From positions 1 to 64,000 of the forward strand of contig MAAN01000011.1 of NCBI GenBank assembly GCA_002163135.1: a stretch of DNA of 64,000 bases, in the 5' to 3' direction. The stretch comes from Alphaproteobacteria bacterium 46_93_T64. GTDB lineage: Bacteria; Pseudomonadota; Alphaproteobacteria; Sneathiellales; Sneathiellaceae. A model generated the notes under the pieces. That model was not told the DNA's origin, ran no database searches, and saw only the letters and a program-made list of their open reading frames with translations. Position numbers and translations under genes: made by a program. Positions 15,943-26,150 of this stretch are shown here, piece by piece; the first letter of the stretch is position 1; every line of letters starts with the position of its first letter.

Positions 15943-16917
15943 ATGTTAATCAAAATTCGAAAATCTTGGGAAATCTCGGAGAATGAAACACTTTCTGAAT
16001 CGCAATATGTCGGCAGGAGAGATATTCTCAAAACAATGGGGCTTGGTGGCCTGATGGCGGCTAGCTCGGGACTGTTTGGAAATAGTATTGCAAATGCGGC
16101 TGGTGCCGATCCAAGCGCACATCTGTATCCAGTGAAGCGAAATGAAGCCTATGTTGGCGGACGCCCTCTCACACCTGAAGATATAGCAACCACATACAAT
16201 AATTTCTATGAATTTGGATCTCACAAAAGTATTTCCAAGGCTGCGCAAGCGCTGAAGTTAAGGCCGTGGACAGTGACGATCGATGGTCATGTTGAAAAAG
16301 AACAAACCCTTGATATTGACGATCTGCTTTCCAAAATGCCGCTAGAAGAACGTGTCTACCGCCACCGCTGTGTTGAAGCATGGTCCATGGTTGTTCCATG
16401 GAGTGGTTTCGCGCTCAAAGATCTTGTCGCACTTGCTGCTCCAACGTCAAAAGCCAAGTACCTGGTCATGCAGACATTTCAAGATAAAGACGTTGCACCC
16501 GGTCAACGCCAGTTCTGGTATCCGTGGCCTTATACTGAAGGGCTAACCATTGAAGAGGCAACGAACGATCTTGCTTTCATGGTTACAGGCTTATATGGAA
16601 AACCACTGCCAAAACAAAATGGCGCCCCGTTGCGTCTGGCAGTTCCATGGAAGTATGGTTTCAAGCAGATAAAATCTATTGTTCGCTTTACATTCACTGA
16701 AGAGCGGCCAAAGAGTTTCTGGCAAGAGCTCAACGGGAATGAATATGGTTTCTGGGCAAATGTTAATCCAGAAGTACGCCACCCTAGGTGGACACAAGCG
16801 ACAGAGCGTGATCTCAGAACAGGAACTAGAATTCCTACTCAGTTCTACAATGGGTATGCGGAAGAGGTTGCTGACCTTTATAAGGTGCTTGGAAAAACAG
16901 AGCGTCTCTTTATGTAG
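15943..16917 (+). CDS. msrP: Protein-methionine-sulfoxide reductase, molybdenum catalytic subunit MsrP
   Basis: Periplasmic molybdopterin enzyme that repairs oxidised methionines in envelope proteins. The 324-residue precursor has a Tat signal (RRDILKTMG with the twin Arg at 25-26, then a hydrophobic stretch to about residue 50). The molybdenum-ligating Cys143 lies in YRHRCVEAWSMVVPW; FWYPWPYTEGLT, PLRLAVPWKYGFKQIKSI and the ending EVADLYKVLGKTERLFM are as in YedY/MsrP. The membrane haem partner MsrQ, often the next gene, is absent: the downstream DNA instead carries small-RNA genes on the opposite strand. Its need for molybdenum cofactor links it to moeA, mobB and modA in this window. Confidence 0.94.
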   Translation: MLIKIRKSWEISENETLSESQYVGRRDILKTMGLGGLMAASSGLFGNSIANAAGADPSAHLYPVKRNEAYVGGRPLTPEDIATTYNNFYEFGSHKSISKAAQALKLRPWTVTIDGHVEKEQTLDIDDLLSKMPLEERVYRHRCVEAWSMVVPWSGFALKDLVALAAPTSKAKYLVMQTFQDKDVAPGQRQFWYPWPYTEGLTIEEATNDLAFMVTGLYGKPLPKQNGAPLRLAVPWKYGFKQIKSIVRFTFTEERPKSFWQELNGNEYGFWANVNPEVRHPRWTQATERDLRTGTRIPTQFYNGYAEEVADLYKVLGKTERLFM

Positions 16918-16930
16918 ATTGTTCTTTCCC

Positions 16931-17060
16931 AAAAAAAACCAGCCTCAAAAGAGGCTGGCAAGTTTAACAGGGAGGTTTGCCATCAAATGGCAGGTGCCCA
17001 CACTGGGAAATATAGAGCACCTTACGATCTTGCGATCGAAGGAAGCAGGGTGTCCCGCTA
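16931..17060 (-). ncRNA. Small RNA A, anti-Shine-Dalgarno (cuckoo-like) family
   Basis: Read on the minus strand: a hairpin CGATC-GCAA-GATCG (17022-17036), a hairpin GGTGC/GCACC (16993-17021) with UUUCCCAGU in its loop, a hairpin TGCCAT/ATGGCA (16978-16992), the linker CCTCCCTGTTA (16965-16975), and an intrinsic terminator with an 8-bp stem (CCAGCCTC/GAGGCTGG, 16939-16958) and eight U residues (16931-16938). The linker and terminator are nearly identical to those of RNA B. The 5' end is a guess. The upper loop has lost the full CCTCCC seen in B and C. Hairpins with CCUCC-rich loops are what is described for alphaproteobacterial cuckoo RNAs; that membership is inferred from memory, not searched. 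Confidence 0.75.
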
Positions 17061-17138
17061 TCCTGTTCTACATGTAGTGAGGAAAAATTCTGTTCGTACT
17101 GAAAATCCAGAATACCTGCTATGCGTTTTGTGCATATC

Positions 17139-17286
17139 AAAAAAAACCAGCCTCAAAAGAGGCTGGTAAGTCTAACAGGGAGGTATACCGTCCGAAGACG
17201 GTATTGCCACTTGCAACTGGGAGGAAGGCAAGTGGCAAAGAATATCGATAAGGGGGGTCGATATTCAGTCAATGCTGCAGTGCAGC
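17139..17286 (-). ncRNA. Small RNA B, anti-Shine-Dalgarno (cuckoo-like) family
   Basis: The best-formed member. On the minus strand: hairpin 1 GAATATCGA/TCGATATTC with a loop containing CCCCCC (17240-17266); hairpin 2, ten base pairs (17205-17237), with CTTCCTCCCAGTT in the loop; hairpin 3, eight base pairs closed by a UUCG tetraloop (17185-17204); the linker CCTCCCTGTTAGA (17171-17183); and a terminator CCAGCCTC/GAGGCTGG with eight U residues (17139-17166). A 13-base palindrome (17274-17286), also found before RNA C, marks the probable 5' boundary. All loops and the linker expose pyrimidine-rich sequence able to pair with Shine-Dalgarno sites. Exact ends need mapping. Confidence 0.82.
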
Positions 17287-17346
17287 GTTGATGATTGAAA
17301 TATAGCCAGAAATAATTTATTTGCCACTTATTTTTTTGCAGTGCAC

Positions 17347-17365
17347 CCATGCATTTGATGCATGG
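17347..17365 (-). repeat. Perfect hairpin between small RNAs C and B
   Basis: CCATGCAT (17347-17354) and ATGCATGG (17358-17365) form a perfect 8-bp stem around three bases. On the minus strand it lies 50 bases past the RNA C terminator and about 60 before RNA B. No U-run follows directly. It may be a promoter-proximal operator or a processing site if C and B are co-transcribed. Confidence 0.45.
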
Positions 17366-17414
17366 CATAATTTGTCTGCAAAGTTTTTATTTTTTCAGGC
17401 GCAAGCTTCTAGCC

Positions 17415-17570
17415 AAAAAAAAGGCCAGCTTATTGGGATAAGCTGGCCTAAAACTAACAGGGAGTCATGTCAAAAATGTCATGACGGCCACTTGTATCTG
17501 GGAGGAAATCAAGTAGCTCTGTTTACGAAAATTGGGAGACTGTCGTAAACAGGTAGCGCTGCAGTGCAGC
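17415..17570 (-). ncRNA. Small RNA C, anti-Shine-Dalgarno (cuckoo-like) family
   Basis: Minus-strand order: a 10-bp hairpin CTGTTTACGA/TCGTAAACAG (17519-17552) with TCTCCC in the loop; a hairpin ACTTG/CAAGT (17490-17514) with TTTCCTCCCAG in the loop; a short hairpin GTCATG/CATGAC (17464-17485); the linker CTCCCTGTTAG; and a terminator with an 11-bp stem (GGCCAGCTTAT/ATAAGCTGGCC, 17423-17448) and eight U residues (17415-17422). The architecture equals that of RNA B although stem sequences differ, which argues for selection on structure and loop sequence. The same 13-base palindrome as in B lies at 17558-17570. Confidence 0.8.
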
Positions 17571-17700
17571 AATCTATGAACAGTTTTTAGCAAATAAAAG
17601 GGTGTGTTGAGTAGAAGAATAAACACAATGCCGATATGCGTTTCATGCATGGCTAGCGAAGGATCACCTTTGCGCCACTTAATTGGGACTTTGAAATTAC

Positions 17701-18591
17701 CTAAAAAGCAGACTCTGACATTTTTCGAATAAGGAAATCACGGAAGATCGTTACCCGTTTTGATTTTCTAAGTTCTTCTGGATAAACATAATATGCATCA
17801 AATATTGGCCCTTCCGTTTCAGGAAGCACGCGAACAATACCAGTCTGACCCTGAGTTATATAATCAGGTAAACTTCCGATCCCGAGGCCACTTTGTATGG
17901 CGAGCAGAAGCCCATACACATTATTCACTTTAAAAAGTGGCGTTATGTCTCTGTTGTATTCTTTAAGAGAGTCGAGGATCCAATTGACGTTAGAAATGTT
18001 TGAAGGAGCCTCATCCCCATAGACCAAGATTTTGCGGCTAGCTAAATCCTGCATGGTCGTAGGGGCATCATTTTTCTCTACATACTCAACTGACGCATAT
18101 AGATGGTGCCGTACCGTCATTAGTTTGCGCATGATGAGGTCAGGTTGAACGGGTTCACGCAATCGAATTGCCACATCCGCTTCCCGCATACCCAGATCAA
18201 GCTCGCGATCGGCCAGTATTAAATTAACGGTTATATCAGGGTAGAGCTCCAGAAATTCCCGAATGCGTGGGGTCAACCAGTTTGAACCCAAGCCAACAGT
18301 CGCGGTCACTTTTATCTCGCCAGAAGGTTTGTCTTTGCTGTCCATGAGCATAGCTTCTGTCATGGCCAGTTTAGCGAAAATCTCATGGGCGGTATTGTAG
18401 AGAAGGTCCCCTTGTTCAGTAAGTTTTAGTCCCCGTGCATGACGATGGAATAAAGGTAACTTGAGGCTGTCTTCAAGCGCACTAATTTGGCGGCTGACGG
18501 CTGATTGGCTTAAATGGAGTGTCTCGCCGGCATGTGTAAAGCTGCCAGCCTCTGCCACGGCATGAAAAATGCGTAATTTGTCCCAATCCAT
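17701..18591 (-). CDS. LysR-family transcriptional regulator
   Basis: A 296-residue LysR regulator: winged helix-turn-helix at residues 3-62 (LRIFHAVAEAGSFTHAGETL, AVSRQISALEDSL, LFHRHARGL), then an effector domain (GEIKVTATVGLGSNWLTPRI, DVAIRLREPVQPDLI, SGLGIGSLPDYI). The reading frame extends to a TTG at 18627, but MDWDKLRIF from the ATG at 18591 is the standard LysR beginning. It sits downstream of trxB on the same strand, separated by a terminator, so it is probably transcribed alone. Its regulon is unknown; the tandem small RNA genes lie directly downstream on the same strand. Confidence 0.88.
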   Translation of the reverse strand: MDWDKLRIFHAVAEAGSFTHAGETLHLSQSAVSRQISALEDSLKLPLFHRHARGLKLTEQGDLLYNTAHEIFAKLAMTEAMLMDSKDKPSGEIKVTATVGLGSNWLTPRIREFLELYPDITVNLILADRELDLGMREADVAIRLREPVQPDLIMRKLMTVRHHLYASVEYVEKNDAPTTMQDLASRKILVYGDEAPSNISNVNWILDSLKEYNRDITPLFKVNNVYGLLLAIQSGLGIGSLPDYITQGQTGIVRVLPETEGPIFDAYYVYPEELRKSKRVTIFRDFLIRKMSESAF

Positions 18592-18708
18592 ATCAGCTGT
18601 GCCCCCGCTCGCGTTATCTGATAGCAAATTCGTTAAAAAGCGCGATCACTTTTCCAACAGATAGGGAGCAGAGTATATAGATACAAAGTTTTTTTCTAGA
18701 AGGAGTTG

Positions 18709-18751: not shown

Positions 18752-19690
18752 TTATTCGGCCAGAAATTTTTCCGCTTCAAGTGCGGACATACAGCCAGTG
18801 CCCGCCGCTGTGACGGCTTGGCGGTAGATTTTGTCCTGGACATCGCCGCAGGCAAAAATACCGGGTAGGTTTGTTGCTGTGGAGTCAGGTTGGGTGATCA
18901 AGTATCCCTCATCATCCATATCCAGTGTTCCTTTGAACAACTCAGTGTTGGGGCTATGGCCGATGGCAATAAAGACACCATGGACGCTGATATCAGTAGT
19001 CTCGTCTGTTTTGACATTTCTAATGCGCGCGGCCGTCACACCAAGTGGTGCCTCATCGCCGAGAACTTCTTCGAGAACACTGTCCCAGACGACTTCGATT
19101 TTCGGATTTTTGTGCAGCCGTTCGATGAGAATTTTTTCGGCACGGAATTGGTCACGGCGGTGAACGATTGTTACCTTGTCTGCGTGATTTGTAAGATAAA
19201 GAGCTTCTTCAACTGCCGTATTGCCACCACCAATTACGAGCACCTCTTTACCGCGATAGAAGAAACCATCACATGTGGCGCATGCTGAAACACCAAAGCC
19301 CATAAATTTTTCTTCTGAAGGAAGACCCAACCATTTTGCTGCGGCACCAGTGGAAATGATGATGCTGTCTGCGATGTAAGTGGCACCTGAATCAGCTGTC
19401 GCTACATAGGGGCGTTGTGACATATCGACATTTGTAATGACATCATGATGGATGATGGTTCCAACATTTTTGGCTTGTGCTTCCATTTGTTCCATCAACC
19501 ATGGGCCTTGGATCGGATCTGCAAAGCCAGGGTAGTTTTCGACATCTGTTGTAATAGTGAGCTGCCCGCCGGGCTGAATACCATGTACCAAAATCGGATT
19601 TAATGAGGCACGTGCTGCATACACTGCTGCTGTACAGCCTGCAGGTCCCGATCCGATTATTAGGACATTGGTTTTATAAGTTTCAGCCAT
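18752..19690 (-). CDS. trxB: Thioredoxin-disulfide reductase
   Basis: NADPH-dependent FAD enzyme that reduces thioredoxin in the cytoplasm. The 312-residue protein has the FAD-binding GSGPAGCTAAVYAARA near the N-terminus, the redox pair in SACATCDGFFY (about 135-140), the NADPH-binding GGGNTAVEEALYL, the Arg pair of HRRDQFRA, and the C-terminal FAD block GIFACGDVQDKIYRQAVTAAG. AGGAG lies about six bases upstream of the ATG. It follows the ELM1-family gene on the same strand. Confidence 0.97.
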   Translation of the reverse strand: MAETYKTNVLIIGSGPAGCTAAVYAARASLNPILVHGIQPGGQLTITTDVENYPGFADPIQGPWLMEQMEAQAKNVGTIIHHDVITNVDMSQRPYVATADSGATYIADSIIISTGAAAKWLGLPSEEKFMGFGVSACATCDGFFYRGKEVLVIGGGNTAVEEALYLTNHADKVTIVHRRDQFRAEKILIERLHKNPKIEVVWDSVLEEVLGDEAPLGVTAARIRNVKTDETTDISVHGVFIAIGHSPNTELFKGTLDMDDEGYLITQPDSTATNLPGIFACGDVQDKIYRQAVTAAGTGCMSALEAEKFLAE

Positions 19691-25920: not shown

Positions 25921-26013
25921 AAAAAAAGAGCCGCCAAAGCAGGCGGCTCAAGTCAACAGGGAGGCGTCAAACAGATTGGATGAGATCCAATCAGCAACCC
26001 GACGCGGGCTGCT
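25921..26013 (-). ncRNA. Small RNA D, dispersed member of the CCTCCC-linker family
   Basis: Minus-strand order: hairpin AGCAGCCC/GGGTTGCT (26013-25993) with loop GCGTC; an 8-bp hairpin GATTGGAT/ATCCAATC (25992-25974); the linker CCTCCCTGTTGA (25964-25953); and a strong terminator GAGCCGCC/GGCGGCTC (25949-25928) followed by seven U residues. It shares the linker and overall plan of RNAs A-C at 17 kb but has only two hairpins before the linker and no CCUCCC loop. It lies between the DUF1192 gene and metY, both on the same strand; CCTATAAAT about ten bases upstream could be its -10 element. Confidence 0.75.
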
Positions 26014-26150
26014 AATAAAGTAATTTATAGGCATTTTATTAAATTACAATTAACGCATACACGATTTTTACTGAAATTCCAAGATTAACGGAGATTATTT
26101 CTAGGTTAATTGGTCTTATTTAGTACTTTTGGTTTGTTGCATGATCTTAT

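Follow-up and report, generated by a model that had tools for sequence, protein, structure and literature searches.

A conserved array of three AbcR-type small RNA genes at the trxB-lsrB locus of Sneathiella, with candidate LsrB and PhaR sites

In the genome of a Sneathiella, the DNA between msrP and a LysR-type regulator gene carries an array of three small RNA (sRNA) genes. Judged from the sequence, the array is a conserved and covarying three-gene set that is AbcR-type by place and by covariance model, and lies outside the Rfam ar15 definition. We consider it probable that the three units are genes for AbcR-type trans-acting sRNAs at the trxB-lsrB locus, activated by LsrB, with the second and third (B and C) repressed by PhaR, and that their products act as anti-Shine-Dalgarno (anti-SD) repressors of nutrient-uptake mRNAs. 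Below, the window is the whole stretch of DNA that was analysed, 64 kb in length.

The 3' neighbour of the array is msrP (15943-16917, plus strand), which is convergent with it. On the other side lies the gene of the LysR-type regulator (17701-18627, minus strand; HTH_1 and LysR_substrate domains), for which no NCBIfam equivalog above its cut-off was found among the best 25 matches. Directly upstream of this gene on the same strand is a thioredoxin reductase gene, named TrxB by homology and synteny (18752-19690, minus strand; Pfam Pyr_redox_2, 7.5e-52). As the original prediction had described, the interval holds three units on the minus strand, and in each of them hairpins and a linker are followed by a strong terminator. 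Unit C (17415-17580) has hairpins at 17519-17552, 17487-17517 and 17464-17485, a linker at 17454-17464 and a terminator at 17422-17449. Unit B (17139-17294) begins with a 5' hairpin (17269-17291), followed by H1 (17240-17266, with a C6 loop), H2 (17205-17237, with CCUCCC at 17219-17224), H3 (17185-17204, with UUCG), the linker (17168-17184) and the terminator (17146-17167). Unit A (16931-17065) has hairpins at 17025-17038, 16992-17022 (UCCC loop) and 16979-16991, a linker at 16960-16976 and a terminator at 16938-16959. Putative 5' ends were placed from a -10-like hexamer CTAAAA (17585-17590) for unit C, from CTATAT (17300-17305) for unit B and from CTACAT (17072-17077) for unit A; drawn in this way, the units extend further upstream than originally predicted, with additional hairpins and promoter sites. 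Each unit has one copy of the linker CUCCCUGUUA, and the 64 kb window contains no other exact copy; the same is true of CTCCCTGTTA. Four terminator-like sites were found on both strands of 16700-17900, where 1.2 were expected.

Each unit folded better than all of its 200 shuffles, with z scores of -9.5 for B, -8.4 for C and -5.8 for A (folded from 17070). The predicted CCUCCC was present in a hairpin loop of both B and C, and the UUCG and C6 loops were present in B. Covariation, which had been named beforehand as a check, was counted for unit B only. When 51 units of all types, defined by pattern and without the unit C of one locus (L016, with Ns), were first aligned, the hairpins aligned poorly and the consensus fold retained the terminator alone; for this reason type-B units were used. 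In 22 genomes the unit B fold paired 97.7% of the cells of the type-B units, and two-sided changes were found at 25 of 45 pairs; none of 500 shuffles was as high on either value. One measure out of five, further pair types, did not exceed the shuffles in these 22 genomes (303/500). Helix 1 of unit B was paired in 95.4% of cells, with its innermost pairs invariant. These results support the claim of tandem anti-SD-type RNA genes whose loops are conserved while their stems change. A protein-coding reading of the interval was rejected, as its six small ORFs had no Pfam match at E ≤ 0.01 and the covariation of unit B favours RNA; the interval had also been predicted to lack protein genes.

By DNA search the region was recovered from 23 of 24 genomes of the genus, own genome included; the one genome without it (G010) is 65% complete. 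Loci were taken from 22 relatives in this genus, to which S. glossodoripedis and S. chinensis belong. A covariance model of the unit B core, R1, was built from Sneathiella units only. It scored 112.7 bits on unit B, a value not independent of the model since unit B is part of it, 56.4 bits on unit C (17416-17519) and 63.1 bits on unit A (16930-17023). The B unit of one locus (L034) is outside R1, having been missed by the linker pattern. On the 22 relatives' loci R1 gave 65 matches, namely 64 array units and one weak match on the opposite strand (L016). Three units were present in 20 of the 22 and two each in L021 and L035, the contig of the latter beginning within the array; with the window included, 21 of 23 arrays have three. 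Spacing is also kept: the distance from the start of C to that of B is 253-314 bases (388 in the Ns-containing L016), and from the start of B to that of A 204-245 bases. In a tree of 62 units, drawn without L016 and L035, type B formed one group (99/99; the bootstrap had not fully settled). Mean identity was 77% within B, 61% within C and 56% within A, as compared to 53% between types. In Sneathiella the array has trxB-lsrB upstream in all 21 cases where the contig reaches that far, and a convergent msrP downstream in 23 of 23. Over the genome that holds the window R1 matched, at E ≤ 1, the three units and a separate BjrC1505 gene at 25921; weak paralogues may have escaped, because 150 of 932 candidates were scored.

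The gene order places the array among AbcR loci. In Agrobacterium trxB-vtlR/lsrB is accompanied by tandem abcR1 and abcR2, and in Sinorhizobium abcR1 and abcR2 adjoin lsrB (excerpts of PMC7486931 and PMC8844928). The order trxB-lsrB-sRNA therefore makes the LysR-type regulator the LsrB/VtlR orthologue by position, and puts the array in the place of AbcR. A search for the LysR protein in named genomes gave 157 relatives, and the best 80 of these were examined as LsrB loci; in 77 of the 80 TrxB directly preceded LsrB in the same orientation. Over the window and these loci (998 kb) R1 gave 64 matches at E ≤ 1. Among the 60 outside the window, 58 shared the strand of LsrB and lay no more than 3 kb downstream of it; the other two were on the opposite strand there (L059) or elsewhere (L041). 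By locus, such a same-strand match lay downstream of LsrB in 47 of 80, consisting of 4 Sneathiella loci and 43 of the 76 others, with none at the remaining 33 of 76 at E ≤ 1; at E ≤ 0.01, 21 of the 76 had a match. The Oceanibacterium matches were strong (76 and 72 bits). Many others were weak singly, so it is the shared position that carries the argument. In this Oceanibacterium locus (L043) three LysR-type dyads but two R1 units were seen within 1.5 kb downstream of LsrB, and a third, diverged unit may be there. When R1 matches are counted regardless of place, 26 of the 142 genomes searched in this class, including two Sneathiella, have one at E ≤ 0.001.

In Aminobacter (L090) and Mesorhizobium (L092) the R1 matches coincided, within 2 bases, with genes of the Rfam ar15 family. 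The ar15 model itself (RF02345) had no match over its cut-off in the window and none at 20 relatives' loci; its best score in the own genome was 17.6 bits, outside the array (150 of 178 candidates scored). At nine further LsrB loci besides L090 and L092 Rfam reports no sRNA. Because the ar15 model misses the Sneathiella units, we call them AbcR-type positional orthologues and not ar15 members. With AbcR1/AbcR2 of Sinorhizobium, Agrobacterium and Brucella (alpha-r15, RF02345) they share the place downstream of trxB-lsrB/vtlR, the tandem copies, multiple stem-loops with putative CU-rich anti-SD stretches, the LsrB box and detection by R1. They differ in having three copies, PhaR-like sites and no match to the ar15 model. 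C-rich unpaired stretches are present in all three folds, but their sequence differs from that of S. meliloti AbcR, for which excerpts of the literature give UUCCCCUC as the linker and CUCCUCCC as the loop, in place of CUCCCUGUUA and CCUCCC in Sneathiella.

The upstream regions were compared by counting motifs over 155 bases upstream of each unit as defined by R1, with the mean of dinucleotide shuffles as expectation; as the genomes are related, counts across Sneathiella are not independent. A LysR-type dyad, ATGC-N7-GCAT, precedes each unit on the minus strand. It lies at 17636-17650 before unit C (exact in 21/22 C units, 0.15 expected), at 17349-17363 before unit B (19/23, 0.72 expected) and at 17121-17135 before unit A (8/22, 0.11 expected). 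The LsrB/VtlR box GCAT-N3-TG-N3-T, which is the published motif before abcR1, is found at unit B (minus strand, dyad at 17349-17363 with 17340-17352) and in 23 of 23 B units (1.73 expected); it was exact in 1/22 C units (0.51 expected) and 3/22 A units (0.48 expected). Outside Sneathiella, 32 of 47 units had the box and 7 the exact dyad, against base-shuffle expectations of 0.64 and 0.16. Two further dyads in the window (24202 and 56014) are possible other LsrB sites or chance occurrences.

A second kind of site, TGC-RNY-GCA, resembles the operator of PhaR. Unit C has one copy at its 5' end (17560-17568), and 18 of the 22 C units carry the motif (0.56 expected). At unit B one copy lies just past the putative start (17276-17284), where it is also the loop of the 5' RNA hairpin, and a second lies upstream (17337-17345) and is ambiguous, because it overlaps the LsrB box. 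All 23 B units have the motif (1.78 expected) and 22 of them have two copies (0.12 expected); among A units it was found in 2 of 22 (0.24 expected). The whole window contains seven, three of them in the array. Outside Sneathiella it occurred in 15 of 47 units (0.78 expected from base shuffles), seven times at the position of the downstream B site. The motif falls within that of PhaR/AniA, which in gel shifts binds the S. meliloti mmgR promoter through it (excerpts of PMC12542648). A PhaR gene is present in this genome (162.7 bits). Of 24 Sneathiella genomes 22 gave a match to it, the exceptions being G017 (56% complete) and G008 (98%). In this genome the 200 bases preceding the phasin gene contain three copies of the motif, and two are found close to the start of phaR.

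These sites could also be read without PhaR, in an AbcR-type array controlled by LsrB only, the upstream TGC-N3-GCA being part of the LsrB site and the downstream one part of the 5' RNA hairpin. The overlap of the upstream B site with the LsrB box fits such a reading, as do Ancylobacter, where the LsrB box is followed by a TGC-N3-GCA that lacks the RNY centre, and the high pairing of helix 1 in unit B. However, the downstream TGC-N3-GCA retains RNY at its centre in 40 of 43 cases (B 22/23, C 18/20), a feature required of a DNA dyad but not of an RNA loop; the innermost pairs of helix 1 are invariant, and the motif also stands before the phasin gene. We regard control by LsrB only as unlikely, though worth serious consideration, and PhaR control of units B and C as probable from the pattern of motifs.

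In the scheme that we favour, with LsrB and PhaR both acting, each unit would be transcribed separately and LsrB would activate each through the dyad upstream of it. PhaR (AniA) would additionally repress B and C at the TGC-RNY-GCA operators near the transcription start. In this family in general, polyhydroxybutyrate (PHB) takes PhaR off the DNA. A build-up of PHB would thus remove PhaR and allow B and C to be expressed, and PHB input is a plausible new feature of an AbcR-type locus. Unit A, largely without PhaR sites, would have a different promoter input. The exposed C-rich anti-SD stretches, namely the CCUCCC loops of B and C, the UCCC loop of A and the CUCCCUGUUA linker, would pair with ribosome-binding sites of the GGGAGG type, probably with the involvement of Hfq. 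The resulting block of translation would repress nutrient-uptake mRNAs, for example those of solute-binding proteins of ABC transporters. The several copies had been expected to give additive or graded control. Differential control fits better, because the regulatory sites that distinguish the units are kept throughout the genus and B is a separate lineage, while dosage effects may still occur. In S. meliloti AbcR1 is under LsrB and AbcR2 under RpoH1 (excerpts of PMC8844928), and different sites on three lasting copies likewise point to differential expression over plain dosage.

Another possibility is that the array belongs to a different anti-SD family with a similar 3' module and came to lie at this position by chance. 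Scores below threshold were obtained with suhB/MmgR (alpha-R8, RF00519; 28.5-31.2 bits, cut-off 41), SorY (RF02651; 20.1-36.2, cut-off 111), SorX (RF02784; 18.1-28.8, cut-off 46.6) and BjrC1505 (RF02356; 15.8-18.6, cut-off 50), and membership in all four was rejected. The unit A of one relative (L033 2346-2417, minus strand) did pass the SorX cut-off with 50.4 bits, a hint that SorX, ar15 and the array units may share a 3' module. SorX/SorY and BjrC1505 have the 3'-end CCUCCCUGUU and terminator in common with the array. MmgR/SisA-D have, like the array, an anti-SD stretch ahead of the terminator, and mmgR of S. meliloti is repressed by AniA/PhaR via an operator of the kind seen here (excerpts of PMC12542648); the alpha-R8 10-mer UUUCCUCCCU has no exact copy in the array, only matches with one mismatch. 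Against this possibility, every window unit scored under every cut-off, the trxB-lsrB position is conserved, and the genome holds separate genes over cut-off, for suhB/MmgR on another contig (G000:C7:50674-50750, L145; 42.6 bits) and for BjrC1505 in the window (25921-26050, minus strand; 68.2 bits, with 29.3 bits under R1). We therefore hold membership in such a family to be very improbable. The suhB/MmgR match adjoins prephenate-dehydratase-like and NUDIX-like ORFs (named by eye), and the BjrC1505 gene ends in CCUCCCUGUUGACUUG and a terminator that resemble the 3' ends of the array units.

The link to the cuckoo/CcsR (NfeR1, alpha-r14) RNAs that had been suggested is close to untenable: the array does resemble them in carrying several anti-SD loops on divergent stems (excerpts of PMC10746234), but CCUCCUCCC, present in each of three alpha-r14 hairpins, had no match in the window, ar14 had none at E ≤ 10, and the array sits at another locus, flanked by lsrB and msrP.

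AbcR blocks the translation of transporter mRNAs in reporter tests (excerpts of PMC8844928). In this genome 4 of 15 LivK-type genes, with starts chosen by rule, have GGGAGG at the ribosome-binding position, in comparison to 1 of 105 other starts and 0 of 40 neighbours (p 8e-4); the single control with it is a solute-binding protein gene found by its motif. The excess is suggestive of transporter targets. Predicted duplex energies were stronger at LivK-type starts than at controls (p 9e-4) but no better than for reversed segments. A search for the linker complement (CAGGGAGG, 2-9 bases before ATG) was not enriched, with seven matches and seven for the reversed-pattern control. Six of the seven were open frames of 1-15 codons, and the one real start was that of an SBP_bac_5 protein (C30:18986).

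The signal received by LsrB may also be of another kind. LsrB of A. tumefaciens uses cysteines, and C144 and C273 are common to S. meliloti and B. abortus (excerpts of PMC11975290). The window LsrB has no cysteine and thus no two-cysteine switch, so its input differs from the known redox input. In the best aligned segments, 18 of 21 Sneathiella LsrB proteins had no cysteine and three had one. Among the best 80 of the 157 loci 41 segments lacked cysteine, which puts cysteine redox sensing in question as the general LsrB input.

It is tempting, and at present tentative, to see the locus as a signal integrator in Sneathiella, and probably in Oceanibacterium, Terasakiella and some Rhodospirillales, where LsrB would switch the sRNAs on and PhaR would repress two of the three units depending on the PHB stores. 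The link named for S. meliloti runs the opposite way, AniA being a putative target of AbcR there (excerpts of PMC8844928), whereas in Sneathiella PhaR would act on the sRNAs. Among the matches listed from the open-licence literature no title dealt with PhaR control of AbcR, the PhaR paper (PMC12542648) contains neither 'AbcR' nor 'LsrB', and no paper on small RNA in Sneathiella was found in that literature. If the proposed reading is true, the AbcR system extends beyond the reach of the Rfam ar15 model into further alphaproteobacterial lineages, where a covariance model of the R1 type detects AbcR-type units. A PHB-sensing repressor and a LysR-type activator would then meet on duplicated sRNA promoters, a wiring that is testable, and as part of a signal integrator carbon storage would directly set the level of the repressors of nutrient uptake.
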